DNA from: a gamma proteobacterium HIMB30 | Lineage (GTDB): Bacteria > Pseudomonadota > Gammaproteobacteria > Pseudomonadales > Litorivicinaceae | Length of the DNA: 64,000 nt | NCBI GenBank assembly: GCA_000227525.2 | Contig: AGIG01000034.1 | Location: 186,001-250,000 of the forward strand | Direction of reading: 5' to 3' | Shown: in pieces, positions 14,499-63,801 of the stretch | Numbering within the stretch: the stretch's first letter is position 1 | Layout: each line of letters begins with the position of its first letter | Position numbers and translations under genes: made by a program | The notes under the pieces: model-generated | Databases searched by the model: none | Seen by the model: only the letters and a program-made list of their open reading frames with translations | What the model was told of the DNA's origin: nothing

Positions 14499-15991
14499 TT
14501 GACGGTCTTCTACTGGGGCTCGGCGCAGCCATCAGCCCATTCAATTTGATCATGGTATTCATCGGATGCTTCCTGGGTACTTTCATCGGCATGCTTCCCG
14601 GACTTGGCCCCATGTCGATCATTGCCATCATGATCCCAATCGCGATCCAGATTGGAGACCCGGCATCGGCATTGATTTTACTGTCCGGCGTCTACTACGG
14701 CGCGATCTTCGGTGGTTCAACCTCATCCATCCTGATCAATGCACCCGGCGTTGCTGGTACTGTCGCGTCATCATTTGATGGCTATCCGATGGCACGCGCG
14801 GGGCAAGCAGGTAAAGCGCTGACAACCGCCGCTATCTGCTCATTTGCAGGGGGCACCATCGGCGCAATCCTTCTCATGATCTTTGCCCCAGTTTTATCAA
14901 CGGTCGCAAAACTATTCTGGTCCGCTGAGTATTTTGCGCTCATGGTGCTTGGTCTTACAGCAATCGCGGCCTTCGCTGGTCAAGGGAAGATCATCAAAGC
15001 GTTGTGCATGACCATCTTTGGCGTCATGTTAGCGACCGTCGGCGAGTCCGCCCTGCACAATGCTGCGCGCTTTACGATGGGCATTATGGATCTCCAGAGT
15101 GGTATCTATTTCGTCACACTCGTCATGGGTCTCTTTGCCCTCCCCGAAGCTCTGTTCTTGGTTCTTGATGAGAAACGAAGCAAGGCGATGGCCAACAACA
15201 ACAAGATTGAGAATTTACGTATTTCCAAAGAAGAAGCCAAAGAGATTGCACCCGTTGTTGCGCGCCAGTCACTACTCGGTTTCTTCGTGGGTGTGTTGCC
15301 GGGAGCCGGCGCCACTATGGCGTCGTTCCTGGGTTACGGAATCGAAAGAAACCTCGCTCCTGCCGAAGAGCGTGAGAAATTTGGAAAGGGATCGATCCGA
15401 GGTCTGGCGGCTCCAGAAACAGCGAATAATGCTGCCTGCACAGGGTCATTCGTTCCGATGCTCACGCTTGGAATCCCAGGTTCGGGGACTACCGCAATCC
15501 TTCTTGGTGCTTTGGTGGCTTTAAGTATCACGCCGGGTCCACGTCTGATGGAAGATCAGCCAGAAGTATTCTGGGCAGTAATTATTTCGATGTATTTAGG
15601 GAATATCGTTCTGTTGATACTCAACTTGCCACTCATTCCCTACATCGCCAAACTACTTACGGTACCGCGGCATTACCTGATTCCATTTGTCATTTTCTTT
15701 TCGCTAATTGGAGCATACATCGGTCAAAATAATGCGACCGAGCTTTTGATCATGATTGGTCTTGGTTGCATGGCTACCGTGTTGAGGTTTGGTGGCTTCC
15801 CTTTACCTCCATTGATCATCGGGTTCATTCTTGGTGGGATGCTCGAGGATAACCTTGGGCGCGCCATGCGCAAGGCAGGCGGTTTAGAATTTATGTGGGA
15901 ACGACCAATGACTCTTGGAATTCTCTTCCTGGCTCTGGCGCTCCTTGTCTACCCGATACTGAAAGACAGGAAAAAAGCAGTCCGTGAATAA
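14495..15991 (+). CDS. tctA: TctA-family large membrane subunit
   Basis: Large permease subunit of the TTT transporter, 498 aa with about a dozen membrane helices. Family hallmarks: GCFLGTFIGMLPGLGPMSIIAIM near the N-terminus, YYGAIFGGSTSSILINAPG, ATSFDGYPMARAGQAGKAL-like segment, and the second repeat GFFVGVLPGAGATMASFLGYG with FVPMLTLGIPGSGTTAILLGAL. The two repeated glycine/proline motifs form the pseudo-symmetric transport core. It overlaps tctB by four bases and the following CoA-transferase by eight. Confidence 0.95.
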   Translation: MIDGLLLGLGAAISPFNLIMVFIGCFLGTFIGMLPGLGPMSIIAIMIPIAIQIGDPASALILLSGVYYGAIFGGSTSSILINAPGVAGTVASSFDGYPMARAGQAGKALTTAAICSFAGGTIGAILLMIFAPVLSTVAKLFWSAEYFALMVLGLTAIAAFAGQGKIIKALCMTIFGVMLATVGESALHNAARFTMGIMDLQSGIYFVTLVMGLFALPEALFLVLDEKRSKAMANNNKIENLRISKEEAKEIAPVVARQSLLGFFVGVLPGAGATMASFLGYGIERNLAPAEEREKFGKGSIRGLAAPETANNAACTGSFVPMLTLGIPGSGTTAILLGALVALSITPGPRLMEDQPEVFWAVIISMYLGNIVLLILNLPLIPYIAKLLTVPRHYLIPFVIFFSLIGAYIGQNNATELLIMIGLGCMATVLRFGGFPLPPLIIGFILGGMLEDNLGRAMRKAGGLEFMWERPMTLGILFLALALLVYPILKDRKKAVRE

Positions 15992-50432: not shown

Positions 50433-51188
50433 TTAGTCAGTCGAGCGCTCAGCCCAGCCAGCGAAGATTTTTTCCAAAAACACGACCACGTAGTAGAGCG
50501 CGATGCCCAGCACCGCCAAAGCAATCAACACTGCAAACATGAGCGGGTAATCCGAGTTCGTCTTTCCGCTATCAAATAGCGCTCCCAATCCTCGACCATG
50601 TGGGGATACGATTTCCATCAGATTCGTCCCGATAAAGGCAAGCGTAACGGCCACCTTAAGCGCACCAAAGAACTCGGGAAGCGTCTTGGGAAGCGCAATT
50701 TTCCAGAAAATCGTCAGCTTGGATGCGCCAAGTGACCGCAATATATCGCGATACTCTGGTTCAAGGGTCGATAGCCCAATCGATACAGAGACTGCGATTG
50801 GGAAAAATGAAATCATAAAAGCGATTAACACTGTGTTCAGGTCATGCTGACCCACAAACATCAGGGCAACAATAGGAACTACAGTCGCTTTAGGTATCGC
50901 ATTAAAACCAACCAGTAACGGATATAACCCCTCACGCATGATCTTCGAGAATCCCATGATCATGCCCAAGAAAACACCGACAACAATTGCAATCAAAAGT
51001 CCCACAACAGTCCGCCAGAGCGTGTCCCATCCGTAAGACAAGAACAATTCTTTGAACCGCCAAAATGCTGGCCACAGATCGGACGGTGACGCCATTTTAT
51101 AGTTTGGCCAGTCATTGACCCAGACCAAGGCCTCCCAAAAAACCAAGAAAATGACAATCGCAAAACCTGGGATCAGATACTGCCGCAT
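50433..51188 (-). CDS. ABC transporter permease (NMT1/THI5-type system)
   Basis: A 251-residue permease of the SsuC/TauC/ThiX type with six membrane helices. The cytoplasmic coupling loop DILRSLGASKLTIFWKIALPKTLPEFFGALK is typical. The system belongs with the ATPase and binding protein directly upstream. Nitrate, sulphonate, taurine or pyrimidine transporters share this architecture. Confidence 0.92.
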   Translation of the reverse strand: MRQYLIPGFAIVIFLVFWEALVWVNDWPNYKMASPSDLWPAFWRFKELFLSYGWDTLWRTVVGLLIAIVVGVFLGMIMGFSKIMREGLYPLLVGFNAIPKATVVPIVALMFVGQHDLNTVLIAFMISFFPIAVSVSIGLSTLEPEYRDILRSLGASKLTIFWKIALPKTLPEFFGALKVAVTLAFIGTNLMEIVSPHGRGLGALFDSGKTNSDYPLMFAVLIALAVLGIALYYVVVFLEKIFAGWAERSTD

Positions 51189-51992
51189 TTATACCTCCGC
51201 ACCATTTCTCGCGATACGGATTTGTTCGCGCAGCTCGTTCAGAATACTAATCGATTGGTTGGTGTAGAGCTGGTCAAGAGACGGAGGCCCTTCTCTCGTC
51301 AAAGCGACCCTGTGCTGCACCGTCGCGGGTCGATCAGACAGCACAACCACCTCGTCGGCTAAGAATATGGATTCTCTGAGATCGTGAGTGATCAAGACGC
51401 CGGTGAACGGCTCTTCAGCCCTGAGCTTATGCATTGTGAGCCACAGATCCTCTCGAGTGAATGCGTCCAGCGCGCCAAATGGCTCATCCAAGATCAATAC
51501 ATCGGGGTTATGAATCAGAGCCCTGCATAGGGATGCACGCTGACGCATTCCGCCAGATAACTCCGACGGTCGTTTGTCCTCAAACCCTGAAAGGCCAACG
51601 AGATGCAGTAGATGCCTAGCCCGATCCTCCGCACCCTGCTTACTCAGATTTGTTGGGACAATCTCAAGAGGAAGAAGCACATTCTTCAGGATACTGCGCC
51701 ACTCGAGTAATACCGGGTTCTGAAACGCCATACCCACCGTCGATCGCGGCGATACCACCTGCTCTCCGTGCAGCCAGACTGTGCCCTCATCCGGCCGCAT
51801 GAGTCCAGCAATGAGTCTAGTCAAAGTCGACTTACCGCAACCGGAAGGGCCAACGACTGCTGTGAACCCATGCTGGGGCACTCCAAGGGTTAAGTTTTCA
51901 AGGACGGGCAGCGCTTGGCCATCTTTCCGGTACGCGTGCGTCACGTTCTCGATGGCGATGAGATTCTCTTGAGAGCTAGACAATTCAAGCAT
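51189..51992 (-). CDS. ABC transporter ATPase (NMT1/THI5-type system)
   Basis: A 267-residue ABC ATPase of the SsuB/TauB type. Walker A is GPSGCGKSTLTRL, signature LSGGMRQRASLCRAL, Walker B DVLILDEPFGALD, and ITHDLRESIFLADEVVVLS carries the switch histidine. It ends one base before the permease starts. Standard energising subunit of the importer. Confidence 0.95.
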   Translation of the reverse strand: MLELSSSQENLIAIENVTHAYRKDGQALPVLENLTLGVPQHGFTAVVGPSGCGKSTLTRLIAGLMRPDEGTVWLHGEQVVSPRSTVGMAFQNPVLLEWRSILKNVLLPLEIVPTNLSKQGAEDRARHLLHLVGLSGFEDKRPSELSGGMRQRASLCRALIHNPDVLILDEPFGALDAFTREDLWLTMHKLRAEEPFTGVLITHDLRESIFLADEVVVLSDRPATVQHRVALTREGPPSLDQLYTNQSISILNELREQIRIARNGAEV

Positions 51993-52052
51993 CCTTACTT
52001 TGAGTCACGCCCGCTGACCTAATAACAGCAAGCGGGCGCATTGATTAGGCGT

Positions 52053-53060
52053 CTAATTTAACTTAAAACCGCCAGAGGGCAAGAATGCATCTGTGAAATA
52101 CAGGTCTGCTTTTGGCGTGGTCTTGTACTCGTAGGTATCACGCAGTTGCTCAATCGCTCCAGCAAACCGAGACTTGTCGATGTTACCCATCCCGTTTTGT
52201 TTAACGTAATCTGTCAGCACATTGGCGTCGATCGCTAGACCAAGGCGGCGCTCCTCGAGGCCTGCGTCGGCAGCCGGGTTTCTCTTAACCAGCGCTGCGA
52301 CTGCAGCACCAGGGTTAGCGATCGCATCCTTCCAACCTGCGCCTACCGCCTTTAAGAAGGCCTTTACCGTATCAATATTCGCGTTCGCGTATTCTGTATT
52401 GACGATGATTGCGTTTCCGTAGAGCTTAAGGCCATGATCAGCCATCAGAATTGTCGAGATATCATCCTCTGGAGTACCGAGGCGGACGAGATTTAAGTAC
52501 GAAGAAAATGAGAACCCAGTCACCGAGTCGACTTTCCCTTCTGCGAGCATCGGCTCACGAGTTGGGAATCCAACAGGCTCTACCGTAATCTTGCTCATAT
52601 CAAGATTATTCGCCTTCGCAAAGGATGGGAACTGCGCCCATGCTCCATCAGGTGGCGGCGCACCCAGAGTCGAACCCTCAAGGTCTTTCGGCTCCGAAAT
52701 CCCGAGCGACTTACGTCCCACGATAGCAAAAGGCGGCTTATCGTAAACCATCATAACCGCCGTAACCGGTGCGCCAGGGTTCTGATCGAGAAACTTAATC
52801 AACGAATTAATATCGGCAAAGCCAACTGGAAATGCACCTGTTGCAACCTTCGGGATCGCATCGAGTGATCCCTTGCCCGGCGAGATCTCAACGTCGAGTC
52901 CGGCCTTCGAGAAATGGCCATTATCAATCGCCAAAAAATAGGGCGCCGATGGACCCTCAAACTTCCAATCTAAAGCAAACTGAATCTTTGTTGCAGCCAT
53001 CGCTGAGAGGCAAAAAATAGATGCAAACGAAGCCGCCAATAATTTCCGTATCATTTTCAT
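52053..53060 (-). CDS. NMT1/THI5-like periplasmic binding protein
   Basis: A 335-residue binding protein with signal peptide MKMIRKLLAASFASIFCLSA. The mature part starts TKIQFALDWKFEGPSAPYFLAI, typical of NMT1/THI5-like proteins that bind pyrimidines, sulphonates or similar; PVGFADINSL and TLGAPPPDGAWAQFPSFA are further family segments. A RutR-like operator overlaps the promoter region, and the urease/ureide operon is next door, so a pyrimidine or a related nitrogen compound is a reasonable guess for the ligand. Confidence 0.9.
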   Translation of the reverse strand: MKMIRKLLAASFASIFCLSAMAATKIQFALDWKFEGPSAPYFLAIDNGHFSKAGLDVEISPGKGSLDAIPKVATGAFPVGFADINSLIKFLDQNPGAPVTAVMMVYDKPPFAIVGRKSLGISEPKDLEGSTLGAPPPDGAWAQFPSFAKANNLDMSKITVEPVGFPTREPMLAEGKVDSVTGFSFSSYLNLVRLGTPEDDISTILMADHGLKLYGNAIIVNTEYANANIDTVKAFLKAVGAGWKDAIANPGAAVAALVKRNPAADAGLEERRLGLAIDANVLTDYVKQNGMGNIDKSRFAGAIEQLRDTYEYKTTPKADLYFTDAFLPSGGFKLN

Positions 53061-53259: not shown

Positions 53260-53907
53260 TCAGCCGCTGCTTACGTCGACAGCACCCACACTACCAAGAT
53301 CTTTCGCTCTCAACATCCCGCGATCGACAATAAAATCAACGATCTCACGGAGTCCCTGCCCTGTCTTCATGTTGGTGAATACAAAAGGCTTCTCGCCACG
53401 CATTCTTGTCGTGTCACGATCCATGACTTCAAGTGACGCGCCTACCAACGACGCGACATCAATCTTGTTGATGACTAATAAATCGCTCTTCGTGATACCC
53501 GGTCCGCCTTTCCTAGGAATCTTGTCACCTGCACTGACATCGATCACATAGATAGTGAGGTCTGACAGTTCGGGAGAGAATGTGGCGCTCAGATTATCAC
53601 CACCCGATTCTACGAGAACCAAATCAAGCTCCTGATGACGACTCTGCAGGTCATCAATCGCCGCCAGGTTCATCGACGCATCTTCGCGAATTGCAGTGTG
53701 AGGACATCCGCCCGTTTCAACACCCAAAATACGTGTCTGATCTAACGCATCGTGTTGTGACAAAAATTGGGCATCTTCATGTGTATAGATATCGTTCGTT
53801 ACAACCGCCATGTCGTAATAATCACGCATCGCACGGCACAAATTGAGAGTCAGCGCAGTCTTACCTGATCCCACGGGCCCACCGATTCCCACTCGCAATG
53901 CTTGCAT
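53260..53907 (-). CDS. ureG: Urease accessory GTPase UreG
   Basis: A 215-residue SIMIBI-class GTPase that powers nickel delivery to urease. P-loop [11 protein letters not shown] (10-20), switch [20 protein letters not shown], the metal-binding CPH of [15 protein letters not shown], base-recognition [11 protein letters not shown]. Normal length. Last gene of the long importer-urease operon, nine bases after ureF. Confidence 0.97.
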
Positions 53908-53916
53908 ACATACCTC

Positions 53917-54570
53917 CTAAGAACGAAAAAGCCTGGAATATTGAGCCTCATGCTGAGCGCTCAAAATTGAAAGAAGTGGAACAGTGCTTGAGGAATCTAT
54001 CGATAAAGATTCCAGAGCCTGGTCGACGCATTCAGATATCTGTGGTTTCAACTCAGCCAAAATATTTTGCAATGAGTTTTGGCCCAACGGAATCGCTTTA
54101 GCGGCGACGATCATTTGATTTTCAAGCCATGACCAGAGAATGCCAGAGATCAACCAGTCTTCCGGAAGCTCATACCTCGCAGCGACCCATCCGTACAAAC
54201 AGATCAGTGAATATTCATTTGCATCTGGTACGTCGATCCCTTGATCAACTGCCCACTTCTTGAATGCTGCTCCGAGGAGCAAGTCCTCCTGGAGCAACTC
54301 ATGTGTTTCGCGAGACGCGAGCATCTCAGCGTTAATCTCACGGAAAGTCGTGTCTGAAGTCGCTCGGTATGCCCGACTGGCATAGTGGCAATCGAGCGTT
54401 GTCAGCGAGAACTTCATCACACTCTCGCACCAACGAGAAAGCGTTTCCGAGTCACACACAAGACCCTTATCGATCGCAGCTTCGAGCCCTTGGCTAAAAG
54501 CAAATGCACCGATGGGTAGGCTCGGAGAGAACAGATGTAACGCGTGGACGAATGACCTCGACCTAGTCAT
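53917..54570 (-). CDS. ureF: Urease accessory protein UreF
   Basis: Helical urease activation protein of 217 aa from ATG 54570, which has AGGTGG eight bases upstream; the frame reaches GTG 54582. Family motifs are FSPSLPIGAFAFSQGLE near the start and WCESVM. It acts with UreD and UreG to install nickel. Overlaps the end of ureE by eight bases. Confidence 0.93.
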   Translation of the reverse strand: MTRSRSFVHALHLFSPSLPIGAFAFSQGLEAAIDKGLVCDSETLSRWCESVMKFSLTTLDCHYASRAYRATSDTTFREINAEMLASRETHELLQEDLLLGAAFKKWAVDQGIDVPDANEYSLICLYGWVAARYELPEDWLISGILWSWLENQMIVAAKAIPLGQNSLQNILAELKPQISECVDQALESLSIDSSSTVPLLSILSAQHEAQYSRLFRS

Positions 54571-55012
54571 GATGGTGACCACCTAAAGAGTGTTGACCGT
54601 AAGCACCCTTCTCCGGATTAAAAGACCCTTCAAAGTCCTTCACCTCAAGTCCCCAGTGACGACACAGATCTGCCAAGACATGGTCTGGCTGGAATCGAAC
54701 AGAGCCTGGCTGAATCTCAACCGGAGTATGGCGATTCCCGAGGTGATAACAAATTTTAGCGAATAATATTGGGTCATTGGTCGAGGCCTTGGTCAACTTT
54801 TCAATGGCTGCTTTGACAAGGACCACTCGGCCGTCGGTTGCTTTCAAATAATCACCTTCCGAGAGAATCTGACCTCGATCCAGGAAAAGACCAGCCTCCT
54901 CGTCGGTCTCTGTTAACGTTTTAAAACGGCCACGCTTCCGGGAGTCGTAGTCAAGCAAGATGACCGCGTCATATTCCGCTGCTGCCTCGATTTTTTCGGT
55001 AAGCTCCAACAC
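54563..55012 (-). CDS. ureE: Urease accessory metallochaperone UreE
   Basis: A 149-residue nickel metallochaperone. Peptide-binding and metal-binding parts are present (DYDSRKRGRFKTL; ICYHLGNRHTPVEI, where the central His binds nickel). The C-terminal histidine tail is modest (GQHSLGGHHHD). Start is GTG 55012. Located between ureC and ureF as usual. Confidence 0.93.
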   Translation of the reverse strand: MLELTEKIEAAAEYDAVILLDYDSRKRGRFKTLTETDEEAGLFLDRGQILSEGDYLKATDGRVVLVKAAIEKLTKASTNDPILFAKICYHLGNRHTPVEIQPGSVRFQPDHVLADLCRHWGLEVKDFEGSFNPEKGAYGQHSLGGHHHD

Positions 55013-55023
55013 ATTTACGTCCT

Positions 55024-56724
55024 CTAAAACAAATAATATCGTTGAGCCAACGGAAGTAAGCTCGCGGGTTCACAGACTAGAAGTTCACCATCAGCTCGAA
55101 CCTCATAAGTTTCTGGGTCAACTTCAATTGTCGGCTGGAAGTCATTCAACACCATGTCAGCCTTGTTGACTGAACGGATATTTCGAACAGGCAGAAGCTG
55201 CCGATTCGTTTCTGTCATCCAGTTGTTATTTTTCTGTAAGGACAGTTCAGACACGAAGGTCGCGGACAGCCGGTCTGGACATGATCCCATCGCTCCAAAC
55301 ATTGTCCGGTAGTGCACGGGCTGGGGCGTTGGGATGGATGCATTTGGGTCGCCCATCGGGGCCGCCACAATAAACCCGCTTTTCAGGATGAGTGCTGGCT
55401 TCGTACCAAAAAATGCAGGCTTCCAAAGAACCAAGTCGGCCATCTTTCCGACTTCAATGGACCCCACTTCGTGAGCGATGCCATGCGCGATCGCCGGATT
55501 AATCGTGTATTTTGCGATGTACCGTCGCGCTCTAAAGTTGTCGTGCCAGTCCGGATCAGATTCCAACGACCCGAACTGATCCTTCATCTTGTGAGCGGTT
55601 TGCCACGTGCGAGTAATCACCTCACCAACACGTCCCATCGCCTGTGAGTCTGACGCAATCATACTGAACGCGCCTTTATCATGAAGGATATCCTCCGCCG
55701 CGATGGTCTCTTTTCGGATTCGACTGTCCGCGAATGCGACATCTTCAGGGATATTTGGCGACAGGTGGTGACAGACCATTAACATATCGAGGTGCTCATC
55801 GACCGTGTTGATGGTGTAGGGCCGCGTGGGGTTTGTAGAGGATGGGAGGATATTTGGTAACCCAGCGGCCTTGATGATGTCAGGTGCGTGACCACCGCCC
55901 GCGCCCTCGGTGTGGTAGGTATGGATCGTTCTCCCCGCGATCGCGCTCAGGGTTTCCTCAACGAAACCAGACTCATTCAAGGTGTCGGTATGAATCGCGA
56001 CCTGTGTATCCGTCTCATCGGCAACGGTCAGGCACGTATCAATCGCCTGGGGTGTCGTGCCCCAGTCTTCATGAAGCTTAAGTCCACAGGCGCCGGCTTC
56101 GATCTGCTCAATCAGCGCTTGTCGGTTACTCGAGTTTCCCTTACCAAGAAAACCGAAATTCATCGGTTGACCCTCGACCGCACGCATCATCATTTCCATA
56201 TTGAAGGGTCCTGGTGTGCAGGTCGTAGCATTGGTACCCGTCGCCGGACCCGTACCTCCCCCCATCATGGTCGTTATTCCGGACGCGAGTGCCTCATCAA
56301 TCTGTTGGGGACAGATAAAATGAATATGAGAGTCGATACCACCGGCCGTTAAGATCTTCCCCTCACCAGCGATGATCTCAGTCCCGGGACCAATAACCAC
56401 CGTAACTGACGGCTGGATATCAGGATTCCCCGCCTTCCCAATAGCGGCGATCCTTCCTGCTTTCACGCCGACATCAGCCTTGACGATGCCCCAGTAGTCG
56501 ACAATCAGTGCATTGGTAATCACAAGATCCATGCACTCCTGACTTGACCGCTGGGACTGACCCATCCCGTCTCGGATGACCTTCCCTCCCCCAAACGTAA
56601 CCTCGTCGCCGGGGACGGCTGAATCAGTCTCCGGAGTAACCCAAAGATTTGTATCACCAAGGCGAACCGTATCTCCGACCGTGGGCCCATAGAGATCAGC
56701 GTAGGCTTTTCTTGAGATTTTCAT
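55024..56724 (-). CDS. ureC: Urease alpha subunit (catalytic)
   Basis: The 566-residue nickel-containing catalytic subunit, hydrolysing urea to ammonia and carbamate. All active-site residues are present: H133 and H135 (DSHIHF), carbamylated K216 (GLKLHEDWG), H245 (IHTDTLNE), H271 ([13 protein letters not shown]), flap C318-H319 ([13 protein letters not shown]) and D359 (SDSQAMGR). Full length and intact, so active urease is expected. Overlaps ureB by four bases. Confidence 0.98.
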
Positions 56725-57038
56725 ACCGACTCCTCTAGACGACCCATCACTAACCCCCTGAACCCGAATACGTTCCGATCACCGGCCAGCGCCACCAACT
56801 CAACCGTCCTCTCCTGACCAGGCTCGAACCGCACGGCGGTGCCGGCAGCGATATTTAGCCGGAACCCAAGCGCTTGCGGGCGATCGAACGATAAACAGGG
56901 ATTCACCTCGTAAAAATGATAGTGGGAGCCGACCTGGATTGGCCGGTCACCAGTATTCGCGACGACCAATGTCGCGGTCTCACGGCCCTCATTCAGATTC
57001 ACCTCACCAGACTGAATCCGCATTTCTCCTGGAATCAT
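56721..57038 (-). CDS. ureB: Urease beta subunit
   Basis: A 105-residue urease beta subunit, a small all-beta structural chain. Typical segments: [57 protein letters not shown]. It overlaps ureA and ureC by four bases (ATGA), showing that the three structural genes are translationally coupled. Confidence 0.97.
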
Positions 57039-57352
57039 TTCTTCAATGCCTCCTGTATCGGCTCATGAACAGTGACTAACTTCGTCCCGTCTGGGAATGT
57101 CGCCTCGATCTGCACCTCATCCACCATCTCAGCCACTCCATCCATCACTTGGTCTTTGGTCAGTATCGTACGTCCCAGCTGCATCAGTTCAGCGACAGAA
57201 CACCCATCACGCGCGCCTTCCATAATTTCCAAACTGATCAGGGCAACGACCTCCGGGTAGTTCAATCTCAGACCTCGGGCTAACCGACGCTCGGCAACTA
57301 AGCCGGCCGTGTACAGCAATAGCTTGTCTTTTTCTCTAGGGGTTAATTCCAC
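57035..57352 (-). CDS. ureA: Urease gamma subunit
   Basis: A 105-residue urease gamma subunit. It starts [27 protein letters not shown] and contains [21 protein letters not shown], diagnostic of the family. Separate A, B and C subunits are the usual bacterial arrangement. Directly next to ureD. Confidence 0.97.
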
Positions 57353-58210
57353 TCATGTCCTCCAGATTCTTGGCGTTTCGACTTTTCTTGCCATGATTTG
57401 ATCCCCGATCAAAGACCACAGCGAATCCAAGGCGTTCCTCGTGTCTTCTGCGCGATCAGACAACAAACGAATACTGATCAGTCCATCACGGATCGCAGTC
57501 ACGCCAAACTTGCCGCGAAAGCCCTTTAGGATGTGTCGGCAATCAACGACCACTGCAGCCGTCTTTTCAGATCCCGTTGTCAATGCGAGTAACCCTGACG
57601 CGAAACTAGTCATGGCATTCAAACCGCTGACACTGGTTAAAGTCTCGGGTCCGATCCGCAAATGGTCTCGGTACAATAAATGGCGGTCTCGATAAACGCT
57701 CAGCCGCTGGGAAAGACAACCACTCGTGAAAGGGAGGGAGCCAGCTGACCGACCAAACACCGTATGCTCCCAACCGAAGTAAGTAGCCGATGAATCAACG
57801 AAAATCTGAGTCTCTAGATCACCGTGGGCACCATCAAAGACAATCGTATCCTGCGGTAAGTACGCACAAACCGCTTCTTCATCGACCTCGATCAATGTCC
57901 GGGTAGTCTGCATCGAGCCGTTTTGTCGGGCCCGATAGAGTTTCCCCGACGCCGGTGTCGTTATCAAAACCTTGGCCCGGGGATTGAGATAGAACCGGCA
58001 ATCGAGATCATCACCCGACACCATCCCCCCCGGCGGGTGTAGCACGTAGCAATGTGCAAGGTCCTGATCATGAAACAATTTCTGCACCCGCAAAGGTCCG
58101 GCATGAGAAAGTTCGGCGAGCGCAGTCTTACCTGCGCTGGTCTGATGGAAACGACAACTTAGGCTGGCGGGCCAGGTATGATCCGATTCAAGGGACTGAC
58201 ACTGCTCCAT
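57353..58210 (-). CDS. ureD: Urease accessory protein UreD
   Basis: A 285-residue urease accessory protein that scaffolds UreF/UreG on apo-urease. Hallmarks: LHPPGGMVSGDDLDCRFYLNPRAKVLITTPASGKLYRA and the later YLPQDTIVFDGA. Its stop codon abuts the ureA start with no gap. First urease gene, six bases after the racemase-like gene. Confidence 0.95.
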   Translation of the reverse strand: MEQCQSLESDHTWPASLSCRFHQTSAGKTALAELSHAGPLRVQKLFHDQDLAHCYVLHPPGGMVSGDDLDCRFYLNPRAKVLITTPASGKLYRARQNGSMQTTRTLIEVDEEAVCAYLPQDTIVFDGAHGDLETQIFVDSSATYFGWEHTVFGRSAGSLPFTSGCLSQRLSVYRDRHLLYRDHLRIGPETLTSVSGLNAMTSFASGLLALTTGSEKTAAVVVDCRHILKGFRGKFGVTAIRDGLISIRLLSDRAEDTRNALDSLWSLIGDQIMARKVETPRIWRT

Positions 58211-58216
58211 CGGTTA

Positions 58217-58882
58217 CTACTCCAGACACAAGACGCTGGACAGTCGGAGTCCGGCGGCAACTGGATCAATGATTGTCAGCTCTTCCCATTCGCTATTCAG
58301 CTCGGCATAGAGGGCTGTCATGCCCGCGCAACCCAATATGATCGCTACGTTTTCGCCATGCGTATCGACGATATCTCGGATGCAGTGATTGAGTATTTTC
58401 AGCGATTCTCTGGGATCCCTTTCGAGTTCAAGCACCGGTATCCCGCTAGCCAACACATCAAGACAGTTCGGCTCAAACCCTTGCCGCTGAATTGACTCCT
58501 TGATGACCGGGACAGAGACTTGGAGTGTGGTCAGAACGACAAACCGTTGCGAACGGAGCGATGCCCAATGATACGCCGATTGCCCAATCCCAATGACCGG
58601 TCGCCCCACCTGTTCAACGAGATCCCAAACACCGGTGTCATCAAAACAACCCACCACAAAAGCAGAATAGTCATCTGATAATTTTGCGACCATGGACAAC
58701 ATCGCCTCGGTGGCAAGCTCACCATCATCAGCGCCCTGAATTGCTTCCGGTGCGGCGTGATTGGTAATGAATTCGAAACTAGCTCCACCGGCGACAGTGA
58801 TTCGATCCAGTGTGTCTCGACAGGTACTCGTCATCGATTCAGTGCTGTTTGGGTTGATGAAACAAATGACAGGAGACCCCAT
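58217..58882 (-). CDS. Asp/Glu/hydantoin-racemase family, probable allantoin racemase
   Basis: A 221-residue member of the Asp/Glu/hydantoin racemase superfamily. It opens FINPNSTESM like hydantoin/allantoin racemases and has the two catalytic cysteines C79 (VGCFDDTG) and C185 (LGCAGMTA). Placed between an ABC importer and ureDABC, in a window that ends with ureidoglycolate lyase, allantoin racemase (HpxA-like) is the best guess; hydantoin racemase is the alternative. Overlaps the upstream permease by one base. Confidence 0.85.
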   Translation of the reverse strand: MGSPVICFINPNSTESMTSTCRDTLDRITVAGGASFEFITNHAAPEAIQGADDGELATEAMLSMVAKLSDDYSAFVVGCFDDTGVWDLVEQVGRPVIGIGQSAYHWASLRSQRFVVLTTLQVSVPVIKESIQRQGFEPNCLDVLASGIPVLELERDPRESLKILNHCIRDIVDTHGENVAIILGCAGMTALYAELNSEWEELTIIDPVAAGLRLSSVLCLE

Positions 58883-59754
58883 TACCGGTTGGCCCCCGTC
58901 TTGCGTCGGAGTGCCCAGAACAGAGCGAGTGACAAACCAATCACTAAAAAGCTCACCCCAGTGGTCACCGCTCCTAACGCGTAAATCGACGGGTTGGTGA
59001 CGGTTGTCGTTAAACCCCTCAACTCTAACGGTAGCGTATTGACCGAACCCAAAGCCTGCGAAGAGCGAGCCAGCTCATCGTAGCTTAGTGTGAATCCGAA
59101 CAACGCCACACCCACAAGAGCCGGTGCGATGAGAGGGAAAACGACACCCCAAAACGTTTGCCAAGGGGTCGCACCAAGATCCCGTGCAGCCTCTTCATAG
59201 CTGGGATTGAAGCGATTAAAGACCGCGAACATGATTAACAGTCCGAAAGGTAACGTCCAAGTGAGATGCGTCCCCAGACCTGAGGCAACCAGCCCCATTG
59301 AGGTCTGAAAATCATTAATGATCCACTGGATCTCAAAGGTCTGACCGAGCCACTTGATTGTTTCATCAAGCAACCGAAACTGTAACGCAATACCTAAACT
59401 AATCGCGATCGAGGGTATGATTAGGCTTGCGATGGTTAGATAAAACAGGACTCCAGAGCCTCGGAACTTCTTTCGGAAGGCGAGACCTGCACACAGACTC
59501 AGGACCACAGTGAAAATCATCACCAATATCCCGAGAAATAGGGAACGACGAAGTCCCCGGGAGATATCAACGACACCAAGTCCACGCCACAGCTCTTCGA
59601 ACCAGTGAAGAGAGACGCCTCTCATCGGGAATGTCAGACCACCCTCAGGCCCCTGGAACGCCAGCAGAATAATGGACAGCACCGGCCCATAAAGAAAAAC
59701 AACGAAGCACCCAAAGAAAATCGTCAAACACAGGGTCTGAGTCTTAGAAAACAT
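58882..59754 (-). CDS. PotC-like ABC permease
   Basis: A 290-residue permease of the spermidine/putrescine (PotC) type with six helices. Coupling motif: YEEAARDLGATPWQTFWGVVFPLIAPALV. One base overlap with the racemase gene; two bases from PotB. Context suggests ureide, nucleobase or related nitrogen compounds and not polyamines as substrate. Confidence 0.92.
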   Translation of the reverse strand: MFSKTQTLCLTIFFGCFVVFLYGPVLSIILLAFQGPEGGLTFPMRGVSLHWFEELWRGLGVVDISRGLRRSLFLGILVMIFTVVLSLCAGLAFRKKFRGSGVLFYLTIASLIIPSIAISLGIALQFRLLDETIKWLGQTFEIQWIINDFQTSMGLVASGLGTHLTWTLPFGLLIMFAVFNRFNPSYEEAARDLGATPWQTFWGVVFPLIAPALVGVALFGFTLSYDELARSSQALGSVNTLPLELRGLTTTVTNPSIYALGAVTTGVSFLVIGLSLALFWALRRKTGANR

Positions 59755-59756
59755 CG

Positions 59757-60629
59757 TCAGAGCTCCTTACGCACGTTGACGATTCGCATCATGGCCGCGA
59801 CCATCAGGAGCGTGATCGAGACTAAGACCACCGCGTTGGCGGCGGCCGCTGGGAACTGAAGATAGCTCATTTCGACATAGATAATTTTCCCGACAGAAGC
59901 GATCTGTTGGCCTCCGAGCACTCCGATTGTTATGAAATCACCGACGACGATCGTGATGACGAAGATCGAACCGATCATGATCCCGGAGCGGCTCAACGGG
60001 ATAATGATGTTCGTAATAATCTGCCAGGCTGATGCACCCGAGTCCTTCGCGGCTTCGATCAGCGATCGATCAATCTTCGCCATCGAGTTGAAGATTGGGA
60101 CGACCATAAACAGGGAGTAGAGATGAACAAAGCCGAGGGTCACCGAAAAACCGGAGTAGAGCAGCCACTCGATCGGTTCGTCGATGATACCCATGCTCAT
60201 CAGGCCCGTGTTGACGATCCCGTTTCTCCCTAGCAACGGTATCCAAGAAATCATCCGGATGACGTTACTGGTCCAAAATGGAATCGTGCAAACCAAGAAT
60301 AAAACTATCTGCATCTTTAAACTTTGAACACAGAATACGAGATAGAGAGCCACCCCAAATCCAATTCCCAGGGTTAGAAACCATGTCAGGAAGACATACT
60401 TAAAAGTCGATAGATAGGTTGCGAACGTGGTGCACAACCCTTCGTTCCAGTCAAAACATCCGTAAAATAATTCCTCATAATTCATGAGGATCAGATCGGG
60501 GATGAGAGAATACTCGGTGTAGTCCCAAAAGCTCACGACCACGACCAATAGCAGCGGCAACACAAAAAACAATGCAAGCACTAGAGCGAACGGTACCGCG
60601 AGGATACTGCTACTGTTCGGTTTCACCAT
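59757..60629 (-). CDS. PotB-like ABC permease
   Basis: A 290-residue permease of the PotB type. Six hydrophobic segments starting AVPFALVLALFFVLPLLLVVVV; the cytoplasmic motif is LIEAAKDSGASAWQIITNIIIPLSRSG. Forms the membrane channel with PotC. Lies 54 bases after the binding-protein gene. Confidence 0.93.
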   Translation of the reverse strand: MVKPNSSSILAVPFALVLALFFVLPLLLVVVVSFWDYTEYSLIPDLILMNYEELFYGCFDWNEGLCTTFATYLSTFKYVFLTWFLTLGIGFGVALYLVFCVQSLKMQIVLFLVCTIPFWTSNVIRMISWIPLLGRNGIVNTGLMSMGIIDEPIEWLLYSGFSVTLGFVHLYSLFMVVPIFNSMAKIDRSLIEAAKDSGASAWQIITNIIIPLSRSGIMIGSIFVITIVVGDFITIGVLGGQQIASVGKIIYVEMSYLQFPAAAANAVVLVSITLLMVAAMMRIVNVRKEL

Positions 60630-60683: not shown

Positions 60684-61967
60684 TTAGGAAGCGATAAACT
60701 CATTCCACTTTCTGACCATATAGCGGTTTTCGTCCATCACCGCGTTCCAACAGGCAACGCTGCCCATCCGATCCTCGTACGAGCCACCATCCCGCACCTC
60801 TCCGGCCGACGCGAGTTTCTGTCCGTTAGGAGACATGATGTCCTTCGCGGCAGGCTTACCGAGCATCCAGTAGTCCCACTCATAGGCTTCCATATTGGCC
60901 TGCGCCGTTGACAGCACCGCTGAGTAATAACCCTGCCGATTTAAGTAGGCACCCGCCCACCCTGAGAGGAACCAGTTGATGAACTCATACGCCAAATCCG
61001 CCTGATACCCTTTGATCGTAGACGGCAAAGCGAAACCGGCAGCCCAGGCCCTGTAGCCCTCTTTGAGCGGCTGGTAAACACAAGGGATTCCCTTGGTTCT
61101 GACCGCCGTGATCGCTGGTGACCACATCGACTGAATCACAACCTCACCCGACGCCATCAGATTGACGCTCTCATTAAAGTCAGACCAAAACGCCCGGAAC
61201 TGGCCCGCCTTCTTCGCTTCGGTCATGATCTTCATCGTCAAGTCGATTTCTTTCTTGGTCATGTTCCCCTTATCGGGGTACTTGTACTCACCCATCGCCT
61301 CGACGACCATCGCCGCGTCCATGATCCCGATCGATGGGATGTTCAGGATCGAGGCCTTGCCCTTAAACTCGGGGTTCAACAGCTCCGACCAACTGTTGAT
61401 TGGGCGACCGATCAGGTCGGGTCTAATTCCCAGCGTGTCAGCGTTATATACGGTCGGTATCAGTGTTACCCACTCAGTGGGTGTGCTGGAGAAGTTCTTC
61501 GAGTTCTCTCCATCCTTATAGAATACCTTCTTGGGAGCCGTGCCCTGGTCGCCAATTTTCTTACCCGCAACTTCACCCTTCGTGAAGGCGGTGACGATGT
61601 TGTCGAACTCTTTAATCTTGTTCGCATTCATACCGATCAGGTTCCCTGACGGTACTAACTTCTTCAAACTGAAATACTCCGTATCCACCAGATCAAAGCT
61701 GTTTGGCTGGGTCAGAATTCGCTTAGTTACCTCGTCAGTGGTTACTGGAATGTACTCGATGGTGATACCCAGATCTTCCTTGGCCTTCTCACCAATTTTA
61801 GTGTCCTGGTTCACCGCGGTTCCCAGATACCGCAACACCTTCTTCTCGTTTGACATAACATAAGGCGCAACACCACCAAACATGGATGCAGCTGCTAGCG
61901 TACCCGCGCCTTTAATAAAGGATCGTCTCGACAATCCAGCCATATTTTCTTGAGTTTTCTTAGACAT
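60684..61967 (-). CDS. PotD-like periplasmic binding protein with Tat signal
   Basis: A 427-residue binding protein from ATG 61967, which has GGAGG six bases upstream; a longer frame into potA is rejected. The signal peptide has the twin-arginine motif LSRRSFIKGAGTLAAAS, so the protein is probably exported folded. Mature domains resemble spermidine/putrescine-binding PotD (YLGTAVNQDTKIGEKAKED, then AWAAGFALPSTIKGYQADLAYEF). Polyamine-type binding proteins from ureide operons often bind allantoin or purines; ligand unproven. Confidence 0.9.
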   Translation of the reverse strand: MSKKTQENMAGLSRRSFIKGAGTLAAASMFGGVAPYVMSNEKKVLRYLGTAVNQDTKIGEKAKEDLGITIEYIPVTTDEVTKRILTQPNSFDLVDTEYFSLKKLVPSGNLIGMNANKIKEFDNIVTAFTKGEVAGKKIGDQGTAPKKVFYKDGENSKNFSSTPTEWVTLIPTVYNADTLGIRPDLIGRPINSWSELLNPEFKGKASILNIPSIGIMDAAMVVEAMGEYKYPDKGNMTKKEIDLTMKIMTEAKKAGQFRAFWSDFNESVNLMASGEVVIQSMWSPAITAVRTKGIPCVYQPLKEGYRAWAAGFALPSTIKGYQADLAYEFINWFLSGWAGAYLNRQGYYSAVLSTAQANMEAYEWDYWMLGKPAAKDIMSPNGQKLASAGEVRDGGSYEDRMGSVACWNAVMDENRYMVRKWNEFIAS

Positions 61968-61981
61968 AATGCCTCCGTAGC

Positions 61982-62947
61982 TCAGTTTTTGAGTAAAGTT
62001 TCCGTTTCCGGAATCCAGTGGGTATTGCACTCGTCTCCTATCGTTAAGCCCAAACTCAAAAAAGTCTTATCGTCCGTGTAGGCGTGCAAAGTCCCAAAAT
62101 CAGTGGCTACAGAAACCTTCAGATACTGGCCAAGGTATTCAATTCTCTCGATCTTTGAGTTGGACTGTCCTTCGATTCCTATCTGTAACTCACTGTACTT
62201 CACGGAGACCAACCCGTGATCAGACTCGATCACGTTGTGGCCTCCTATGAATTCTGCGACGAATCTGTTCGCGGGGGTTTCATAAATATCGCGGGGCGAC
62301 CCCACCTGCTGGATCTGCCCACCATCCATCACGATCACCACGTCCGAGAGGGCCATCGCCTCCTCCTGGCTGTGAGTGACGTGAACAAAGGGTATGCCGA
62401 GCGATTTCTGCATCGCCTTCAGCTCTGCCCTCATGTCAATACGTAAGAAAGGGTCCAGTGCCGACAAGGGTTCATCCAGCAATAATGCCTTTGGAGACGT
62501 TACCAACGCTCTGGCTAAGGCGACTCGCTGTTGTTGTCCGCCCGATAACTCAGAGGGTAAACGATTCGCAAATTCCTCAAGCTGAACCTTTCTCAGGTAA
62601 TCGAGCGCTGTTGTATGTCTCTCGGTCTTACCCATCCCGCCGATCTTCAAAGCAAACGCGACGTTATCGAGCACACTGAGGTGCGGGAAGAGCGCATAAT
62701 CCTGAAACATCATTGATGTTGGCCGTTTGGCTGGGGCGTGGTCCGTGACATTTTTTCCACCGACGATCACGTCCCCGGAGAATACAGTTTCGTGCCCAGC
62801 GATCGCTCTGAGTGTCGATGTCTTGCCACATCCCGACGGACCGAGCAAACAACAGTACTGGTCTGCCGTCAATTTGAACGATACGTTGGATACAGCCGTG
62901 ACGTTGTCATATCGGATGCAGAGATCTATCACTTCGAGCGCGTTCAT
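61982..62947 (-). CDS. PotA-like ABC ATPase, first gene of the importer-urease operon
   Basis: A 321-residue ATPase of the PotA type with a C-terminal TOBE-like regulatory domain (about 235-320). Walker A GPSGCGKTSTLRAI, signature LSGGQQQRVALARAL, Walker B LLLDEPLSALDPFLRID, switch VTHSQEEAMALSD. A ribosome site GAGG is eight bases ahead of ATG 62947. It is the first gene behind a sigma54-type promoter. Confidence 0.95.
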   Translation of the reverse strand: MNALEVIDLCIRYDNVTAVSNVSFKLTADQYCCLLGPSGCGKTSTLRAIAGHETVFSGDVIVGGKNVTDHAPAKRPTSMMFQDYALFPHLSVLDNVAFALKIGGMGKTERHTTALDYLRKVQLEEFANRLPSELSGGQQQRVALARALVTSPKALLLDEPLSALDPFLRIDMRAELKAMQKSLGIPFVHVTHSQEEAMALSDVVIVMDGGQIQQVGSPRDIYETPANRFVAEFIGGHNVIESDHGLVSVKYSELQIGIEGQSNSKIERIEYLGQYLKVSVATDFGTLHAYTDDKTFLSLGLTIGDECNTHWIPETETLLKN

Positions 62948-62972
62948 TTGTCCTCATTTTTTATTTTTCTAT

Positions 62973-62990
62973 CTCAAGACTTGTGCCAAA
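62973..62990 (-). promoter_or_regulatory. Sigma54-type -24/-12 promoter of the importer-urease operon
   Basis: On the minus strand TTTGGCACAAGTCTTGAG contains TTGGCAC, a perfect -24 element, then AAGTC and TTGA in place of the -12 TTGC. The conserved GG and the -12 G are ten bases apart as required. The predicted start lies near 62961, 14 bases before the potA ATG. RpoN promoters need an activator bound upstream; a perfect NtrC site is found about 110 bases upstream. Confidence 0.65.
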
Positions 62991-63063
62991 CCTTGGATTG
63001 CCTTTATAACCAAATACTTATACTTTTGTCCAAGAAAAAAACGCTCAGTGCACGCACCAGCAA

Positions 63064-63082
63064 TTGCACCAATACGGTGCAA
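63064..63082. promoter_or_regulatory. NtrC-type activator site
   Basis: TTGCACCAATACGGTGCAA is a perfect palindrome with seven-base arms around AATAC and matches the NtrC consensus TGCACC-N5-GGTGCA exactly. Its centre is about 112 bases upstream of the predicted sigma54 start at 62961, the usual enhancer distance. A second TGCACC half-site begins 40 bases to the right (63105), which is about four helix turns, and GGGTGC is at 63087. Together this suggests nitrogen-limitation control. Confidence 0.7.
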
Positions 63083-63165
63083 AATTGGGTGCTTTTCCGG
63101 CAAATGCACCGAAATTGTATGATTGCTGCGCTACATTGTTTCTGAAATTAAAGGAGCCTGAATGC

Positions 63166-63801
63166 ATGGCGACAGTCATCGAATTAAATAATCCGCTTGT
63201 TTTGGACAGAATCACTCGACTCCGAGACAAGACCACCTCCAGCCGAGAATTTAGACAATTTGTCAAAGAAATCACGATCCTTTTAGCCGCTGAAGCGACA
63301 AATGATTTACCCGTAACTGAGGTTGAGGTCGAGACACCGTTGCAGATCACGACTGGTCAACTGATCTCGCAGCCTGGACCTTGTATCGTCTCGATCATGC
63401 GCGCAGGAAACATCATGGCGGAGACTCTACGGGATTTGATTAGCGACGCATCAATAGGATTCATCGGGCTCGCTCGTCAACCAGTGACGCTCGAGATCGA
63501 TGACTACTACACCAATCTTCCGAACGATATAAGTGACAGATATTGCGTTGTAGTCGATCCGATGCTGGCTACCGGAAATAGCCTCAGCGTGGCTCTTCGA
63601 AAACTCATCGAAACAGGCGTAACTCAGATAACAGTGGTCAATATCCTCGCCTGTCCGGAAGGGATAGAGCGTATTACTTCTGAATATCCGGATATCAGGA
63701 TCGTGGTCGCCAAAGTCGATGACAGGCTTAACGAGAAAGGTTACATCCTGCCCGGACTAGGGGACGCAGGCGATCGTATTTACGGGACCGACGACCGCTA
63801 A
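63166..63801 (+). CDS. upp: Uracil phosphoribosyltransferase
   Basis: A 211-residue uracil phosphoribosyltransferase that makes UMP from uracil and PRPP. PRPP loop VVVDPMLATGNS (128-139), uracil-binding end GYILPGLGDAGDRIYGTDD. Start ATG 63166 has AAGGAG nine bases upstream; the frame continues to 63064 through the NtrC site and that part is not believed. Divergent from the importer-urease operon, so it may share the regulatory region. The stop overlaps the end of allA on the other strand by four bases. Confidence 0.95.
   Translation: MATVIELNNPLVLDRITRLRDKTTSSREFRQFVKEITILLAAEATNDLPVTEVEVETPLQITTGQLISQPGPCIVSIMRAGNIMAETLRDLISDASIGFIGLARQPVTLEIDDYYTNLPNDISDRYCVVVDPMLATGNSLSVALRKLIETGVTQITVVNILACPEGIERITSEYPDIRIVVAKVDDRLNEKGYILPGLGDAGDRIYGTDDR

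Follow-up and report, generated by a model that had tools for sequence, protein, structure and literature searches.

A predicted sigma-54/NtrC control region in front of an importer, racemase and urease operon of the gamma proteobacterium HIMB30

The 218-bp intergenic region at positions 62948-63165 of the window, the stretch of 64,000 nucleotides analysed here, very probably combines a sigma-54 promoter with upstream NtrC enhancers into a nitrogen-starvation switch of an operon for an ABC importer, a racemase and urease. The elements, their conservation at orthologous loci, the regulators encoded in the genome and the order of the genes were observed directly. Sigma-54/NtrC control of this operon had been proposed in an earlier note on the DNA, and the elements, their conservation and the presence of the regulators in the genome support this proposal.

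The promoter is read directly on the minus strand at 62989-62974 as TTGGCAC (-24), the spacer AAGTC and TTGA (-12), which bears out the TTGGCAC-N5-TTGA element described before, and it faces the gene of a PotA-like ATPase whose ATG is read at 62947. With regard to the promoter dinucleotides, GG at -24 and the 10-bp spacing are present, while at -12 the G is present and the C absent in all six members of the genus that carry the operon. As the -12 base lies at 62974, the start of transcription is predicted at 62962, which places the centre of the upstream palindrome at -111; the importer operon would accordingly possess a 15-nt leader (62948-62962, minus strand) with an RBS-like GAGGA in front of the ATG, as predicted from the -12 position and the sequence. 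The palindrome itself, TTGCACC-AATAC-GGTGCAA at 63064-63082 of the plus strand with its centre at 63073, is directly readable and its 7-bp arms enclose the predicted, strandless NtrC site I, TGCACC-AATAC-GGTGCA, at 63065-63081; the distance of about 112 bases upstream of the start that had been suggested thus agrees with the 111 bp to the predicted start at 62962. Equally, the additional TGCACC half-site reported 40 bases away is present at that distance (63105-63110) and forms part of a predicted NtrC site II, the one-sided and strandless TGCACC-GAAAT-TGTATG at 63105-63121, centred at about -151.

An origin of the elements by chance was ruled out by genome counts, a matrix of glnA enhancers, shuffled sequences and control pieces. 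In the 2,168,870 bases scanned, TGCACC-N5-GGTGCA occurs only once in the genome without mismatch, as site I of the window, and with up to two mismatches at 71 sites versus 36 for a reversed-pattern control. Seven genome sites possess at most one mismatch, four of which are situated within open reading frames of at least 120 aa, while the remaining three are located upstream of the potA operon, upstream of glnA and upstream of an ammonium-transporter gene (18 bp from the open reading frame of this transporter). One further site, selected by eye from the two-mismatch set among the matches listed, precedes the gene for an amino-acid-type ABC binding protein. Elsewhere in the 64-kb window every other NtrC-type site has at least two mismatches, and no excess of the pattern is found in the window when up to three mismatches are permitted (27 sites found, 23.9 expected from shuffles).

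The glnA enhancers of the genus served as a reference. The glnA gene was located in 20 of the 22 genus genomes, and an NtrC motif together with a sigma-54 promoter precedes it in each of the 20 upstream regions, which belong to 19 intact genes and one split gene whose C-terminal half (L101) was excluded from the set. The NtrC matrix was trained on 39 of the stronger glnA enhancer sites (the 40 top-two sites minus one below threshold), the scores of which range from 10.8 to 23.6 bits in their own matrix. Site I scores 22.1 bits versus 8.8 bits for the next best site in the window, and none of 2000 dinucleotide-shuffled versions of the intergenic region attains the score of site I. A one-sided third site, YGCACCAYAATAG, comparable to site II, is found before glnA in 17 of the 20 regions. 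The potA promoter thereby resembles the glnA-ntrBC promoter of enteric bacteria and of this genus in the 17-bp TGCACC-N5-GGTGCA upstream of a -24/-12 element; the two differ in the -12 sequence, which is TTGC in glnA and TTGA in potA, and in the window genome the glnA sites are situated at about -99, -131 and -68, the potA sites at -111 and about -151. From the published NtrC consensus TGCACC(A/T)4TGGTGCA, as given in the available part of the source, site I differs at one base (PMC4987338). With this sequence and with the NtrC consensus TGCACCAnnnTGGTGCA and the RpoN consensus TGGCACnnTTnTTGC in the corresponding excerpt of a second publication, the elements of the window agree except at -12 (PMC4987338; PMC8743547).

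The sigma-54 element was scored with hand-chosen weights from a consensus that was later compared with a published one (PMC8743547). It is weaker when considered alone, as its score is matched by 14 of 2000 shuffles of a 100-bp segment and as YTGGCAC-N5-TTGCW with up to two mismatches is found 26 times in the window at an expectation of 16.5; its support derives from its conservation at orthologous loci. Within the family, an importer binding protein of at least 95% identity is encoded by 6 of 25 genomes, the window genome (G000) counted, all of which belong to the genus (the other five being G018, G006, G003, G002 and G009). All six share the divergent arrangement of potA and upp, with intergenic regions that are 42-85% identical pairwise, and in each of them TTGGCAY-N5-TTG occurs once and in the aligned place. 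An NtrC-like site aligned with site I is equally found in all six, perfect in the window genome only and with one degenerate arm in G018, G006, G003 and G009, and site II constitutes the stretch of 12 columns with the strongest conservation in the intergenic region, 10 of them being invariant in the six genomes. In the order G000, G018, G006, G003, G002 and G009, the best NtrC score is matched by 0, 5, 3, 2, 0 and 10 of 2000 shuffles, and the sigma-54 score alone by 14, 43, 37, 52, 10 and 1 of 2000. In G003, another position marginally outscores the aligned sigma-54 element. In G009 it is site II that has the higher score, and this, together with the degenerate arms of site I, argues against an equal strength of the sites in all species.

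Both rpoN and ntrC, on which the proposal of the earlier note turns, are present in the genome. The rpoN gene is split between the ends of contigs C30 and C23, and the first of the two pieces contains at least the beginning of each of the three Pfam sigma-54 domains; the neighbouring genes, named by reading the sequence, resemble lptB, hpf, ptsN and rapZ. The ntrC gene exceeds both NCBIfam equivalog cut-offs (TIGR01818, 713.9 versus 558.6 bits; PRK10923, 689.6 versus 620 bits) and is the last gene in the order glnA, a histidine kinase gene (ntrB by position) and ntrC. Throughout the 22 genus genomes, several of which are incomplete, ntrC passes the family cut-off in 19, the window genome counted, and the sigma-54 DNA-binding domain is recognised in 19, in 17 of them at full length. 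In G017 and G019 no sigma-54 domain was found, and neither carries the importer/urease operon.

The unit of about ten kilobases of importer, racemase and urease genes anticipated in the earlier note corresponds to the tightly spaced genes from potA to ureG (62947-53260, minus strand, 9.7 kb), which overlap or nearly touch each other with the exception of one 54-bp gap. It encodes the PotA-like importer ATPase (61982-62947), the solute-binding protein of the importer (60684-61961; a Tat-type signal is present and the open frame begins at 62030), two permeases (59757-60629 and 58882-59754), a member of the Asp/Glu/hydantoin racemase family (58217-58882) and the urease genes ureDABCEFG (53260-58210), of which ureA, ureB, ureC, ureE and ureG exceed NCBIfam and ureD and ureF Pfam cut-offs. 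Behind ureG, a gap of 199 bp, which shows no noteworthy NtrC or sigma-54 site in G000, G003 and G002, is followed on the same strand by the genes of a second ABC importer with an NMT1-like binding protein, an ATPase and a permease (50433-53060), possibly a separate unit. In the divergent direction, upp for uracil phosphoribosyltransferase occupies 63166-63801 of the plus strand (TIGR01091, 237.5 bits versus a cut-off of 208.35).

The designation potA used previously denotes a PotA-like ATPase of an importer and should not be understood in its polyamine meaning. No cut-off of the polyamine Pot models is reached by the ATPase (309.7 versus 482 bits), the binding protein (27.2 versus 582 bits) or the permeases (124.7 versus 489 and 84.5 versus 326 bits), and the binding protein has only weak matches among relatives of solved structure (best E 8.6e-7), so that a polyamine importer was rejected. 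Together with the purine genes nearby, the unmet polyamine cut-offs point to a purine or a purine-derived ureide such as allantoin as the most likely substrate. The racemase matches PF01177 (2e-47) and has among its relatives of solved structure a putative hydantoin racemase (3qvj/3qvk), which ranks ahead at 1.3e-22, and the allantoin racemase 5lfd at 1.1e-18. Since the operon adjoins a purine-catabolism cluster, the enzyme is best read as a probable allantoin racemase.

This nearly complete cluster (L025:3798-14329, genome contig C3) begins just beyond the end of the window and adjoins upp, with allA, alc, uraD and puuE followed by puuD, guaD, xdhC, xdhB and xdhA. The genes alc, uraD, puuE, guaD, xdhB and xdhC exceed equivalog cut-offs, allA is assigned by a subfamily model, xdhA remains just below its cut-off (447 of 467) and puuD is assigned to urate oxidase by Pfam only; no dedicated regulator of the cluster is apparent among its listed open reading frames of at least 120 aa. 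The allA-alc-uraD-puuE genes are located near upp also in G018, G006, G003, G002 and G009. A shared NtrC/sigma-54 element between puuE and puuD was considered for G000, G018 and G006 and dismissed, with none of note present. In G002 (L046:2780-8374) and G003 (L045:4301-9833), genes of a urea ABC importer, missing from this position in the window genome, lie between upp and allA and come with a separate sigma-54 promoter and multiple copies of GCACC; urtA, urtD and urtE of G002 exceed their cut-offs, while the genes of G003 are assigned by resemblance.

Outside the genus, the promoter is more widely preserved than the NtrC sites. Matches to the binding protein (E 1e-60) were obtained in 40 of 390 genomes drawn from the order, 34 of them outside the genus, and the loci of 24 of these were examined. 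In six of the 24 (L071-L076, 55-58% identity), the ATPase gene is located in front of the binding-protein gene in the order ATPase, binding protein, two permeases and racemase. A sigma-54 promoter is found upstream in each of these six distant loci (matched by 2, 0, 0, 1, 7 and 0 of 2000 shuffles), and an NtrC-like site in three, clearly in L071 and more weakly in L072 and L076; L073, L074 and L075 show no significant NtrC site, as 832, 302 and 123 of 2000 shuffles match theirs. At all six loci, a divergent gene for a GntR/FCD regulator (over Pfam cut-offs) takes the position of upp. As a separate observation, TTGCTAACAAT-type repeats occur in L071-L076 near start sites, upstream of the importer ATPase.

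Named genomes were scanned as well, and the best 80 of 486 relatives were kept; apart from the five MAGs of the genus, these contributed 75 loci (L108-L182). The 44 loci in which a potA-like gene of the same orientation lies upstream constitute a further set, and the other 31, many of them SAR116-type with a divergent ATPase, were left uncounted. In this set drawn from the best 80 of 486, a sigma-54 promoter lies within 150 bp of potA in 41 of 44 loci (0.94 expected by shuffling) and an NtrC-like site within 300 bp in 21 (1.57 expected; 23 below threshold), counts that overstate independence because many of the 44 loci are close relatives, many of them from Comamonadaceae; of 220 control pieces inside operons, one matches the promoter. 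As to the conservation upstream of orthologous operons, to which the earlier note had attached weight for both elements, the -24/-12 element is kept throughout the six genus members, the six distant loci and 41 of the 44 further loci from the best 80 of 486, and the NtrC site is conserved in all six genus members, some with one poor arm, but unevenly beyond (three of six and 21 of 44).

A different picture is presented by seven alphaproteobacterial intergenic regions (eight loci given; six titled SAR116 and one Alpha proteobacterium SCGC) with close importer orthologues in a different arrangement, which carry neither the sigma-54 nor the NtrC element at the thresholds used, so that these elements were discarded as a feature of SAR116-type loci. 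Loci titled SAR116, with binding proteins of 75-80% identity, are often found beside purine genes and upp. Furthermore, in many SAR116-type importer loci (L111-L163), an upp-like gene of about 40% identity follows the racemase gene, which suggests that upp travels with the importer in two distant groups.

Among the promoters compared, the departure of the potA promoter from the consensus is confined to the genus. At the position of the -12 C, the six genomes G000, G018, G006, G003, G002 and G009 possess A, G, G, G, T and A, respectively. As the sigma-54 score rewards this C, the loci outside the genus were recounted with a pattern that leaves the base free; TGGCAY-N5-N[TC]G matches 46 of the 50 loci (44 further and six distant), and all 46 have the C. 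In the genus, the best sigma-54 match before glnA equally has C at -12 in 20 of 20 promoters, which suggests that the sigma factor itself is probably unchanged in its preference and that it is the potA promoter that has changed. Absence of the C in all six genus members versus its presence in 46 of 46 loci elsewhere implies that the activity of the promoter could be weak or altered. Some known sigma-54 promoters are without this -12 C. The potA promoter of the genus is thus read as a putatively tuned or weakened, still constrained sigma-54 promoter. A more extensive and rather doubtful reading is that in the genus an ancestral sigma-54-dependent importer operon was joined to urease and brought under general nitrogen control, the non-C base at -12 tuning the promoter, such that a weaker promoter or a higher need for NtrC would restrict the harvest of purine nitrogen to deep starvation. 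The absence of the GntR gene from the position of upp, the aligned NtrC sites and the loss of the -12 C in six of six genomes are consistent with such a course.

The same observations bear on alternative explanations of the region. The operon might be read from the sigma-54 promoter but owe its activation mainly to a different enhancer-binding protein or to a regulator specific to the pathway, with the NtrC sites in a minor role, for which the GntR/FCD gene at the position of upp in all six distant orthologues, the three of these six without a significant NtrC site and three further strong sigma-54-activator matches in the window genome can be cited; as the site of the window fits the glnA enhancer matrix with 22.1 bits and the divergent gene is upp and no regulator, here and in the five genus relatives, such an arrangement is improbable. 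A decaying sigma-54 promoter in the genus, with the operon read from a sigma-70 promoter and the NtrC sites being relics or serving another role, would account for the -12 C missing from six of six members. TTGGCAY, TTG and the 5-bp spacing are fixed in all six, however, despite intergenic identities of 42-85%, and the upstream sites are still conserved, which makes decay highly improbable. Furthermore, no sigma-70 promoter for potA or upp was recognised in the intergenic region, although this absence is weak evidence because the scan retrieved fewer matches (3) than were found in shuffles (11.7).

The least probable of the alternatives, with very little to be expected of it, is that the palindrome mainly controls upp, through an NtrC roadblock or repression, or serves another regulator. 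Site II lies about 53 bp from the start codon of upp and coincides with the most conserved block, but the best sigma-54 match towards upp reaches 10.2 of 15 versus 12.5 towards potA, and the same weak sigma-70 scan recognises no upp promoter.

Under the favoured reading of NtrC-activated, sigma-54-dependent transcription of the operon, and by analogy with the known system, a fall in intracellular glutamine would lead NtrB to phosphorylate NtrC, which would oligomerise on site I at -111 and site II at -151 and, by looping of the DNA, contact the RNA polymerase that sigma-54 keeps at TTGGCAC-N5-TTGA, with transcription of the genes from potA to ureG as the expected result. The products would take up a compound rich in nitrogen, for which a purine or a ureide derived from it such as allantoin is the likeliest candidate; the racemase would permit both enantiomers of allantoin to enter the neighbouring pathway of xanthine dehydrogenase, urate oxidase, OHCU decarboxylase, allantoinase, allantoicase and ureidoglycolate lyase, and urease would turn the resulting urea into ammonium. 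Binding of NtrC, the start site, the length of the operon, the inducing condition and the substrate are predictions in this scheme.

The kind of control proposed is already known and ordinary, and the operon in this clade represents a new instance of it. Among the clusters of orthologous groups, COG3842, COG1176 and COG1177 are the PotA-, PotB- and PotC-like ones. A survey of sigma-54 regulons across bacteria contains, in its available part, COGs that fit such an importer and a hydantoin racemase (PMC12316311); it is conducted at the COG level, and neither the operon described here nor its NtrC sites nor the clade figure in the part seen. Urease belongs to the NtrC regulon of several Proteobacteria from several orders, according to the accessible portion of a further study (PMC5343134). 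In Burkholderia cenocepacia H111, as far as the available excerpt goes, the urt genes and the genes for urease, urate oxidase, xanthine dehydrogenase and allantoicase are activated by NtrC, and the ntrC mutant, which grows more poorly on allantoin and urea, shows lower expression of the genes for these four enzymes (PMC5491218). The same mutant grows better on uric acid (PMC5491218), and NtrC thus need not favour every purine; unlike this organism, the window genome has its importer, racemase and urease genes follow a single promoter. Purine clusters of SAR116 and SAR11 in the ocean are described, in the section of the source available, with a purine ABC transporter, allantoin racemase, uracil phosphoribosyltransferase, purine catabolism and urease (PMC11698098), a gene set alike to the one observed here, the ABC transporter of which may or may not be the same; the seven alphaproteobacterial intergenic regions differ from the window in the lack of sigma-54 and NtrC elements. 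No published account of the operon in this clade was found in the literature searched, nor any that links allantoin racemase with NtrC or Litorivicinus with purine.

With this region, a testable case founded on sequence is at hand for a marine bacterium that would use purines for nitrogen and not for carbon or energy, a choice that in other ocean groups has been concluded for the most part from the genes present, the type of transporter and the distribution with depth, as stated in the part of the source at hand (PMC11698098). Equally, the apparently widespread sigma-54 control of the importer would suggest a nitrogen role for this misleadingly Pot-like transporter in several proteobacterial groups, and the six promoters of the genus offer a natural set that differs at one key -12 base. 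Finally, two matches to Rfam families are found in the window: 5_ureB_sRNA at 56292-56575 of the plus strand (86.9 bits), antisense to ureC and probably a reflection of the conserved ureC coding sequence, and Cis8_sRNA, known from Ruegeria, at 15536-15663 of the minus strand with 61 bits versus a gathering score of 58.
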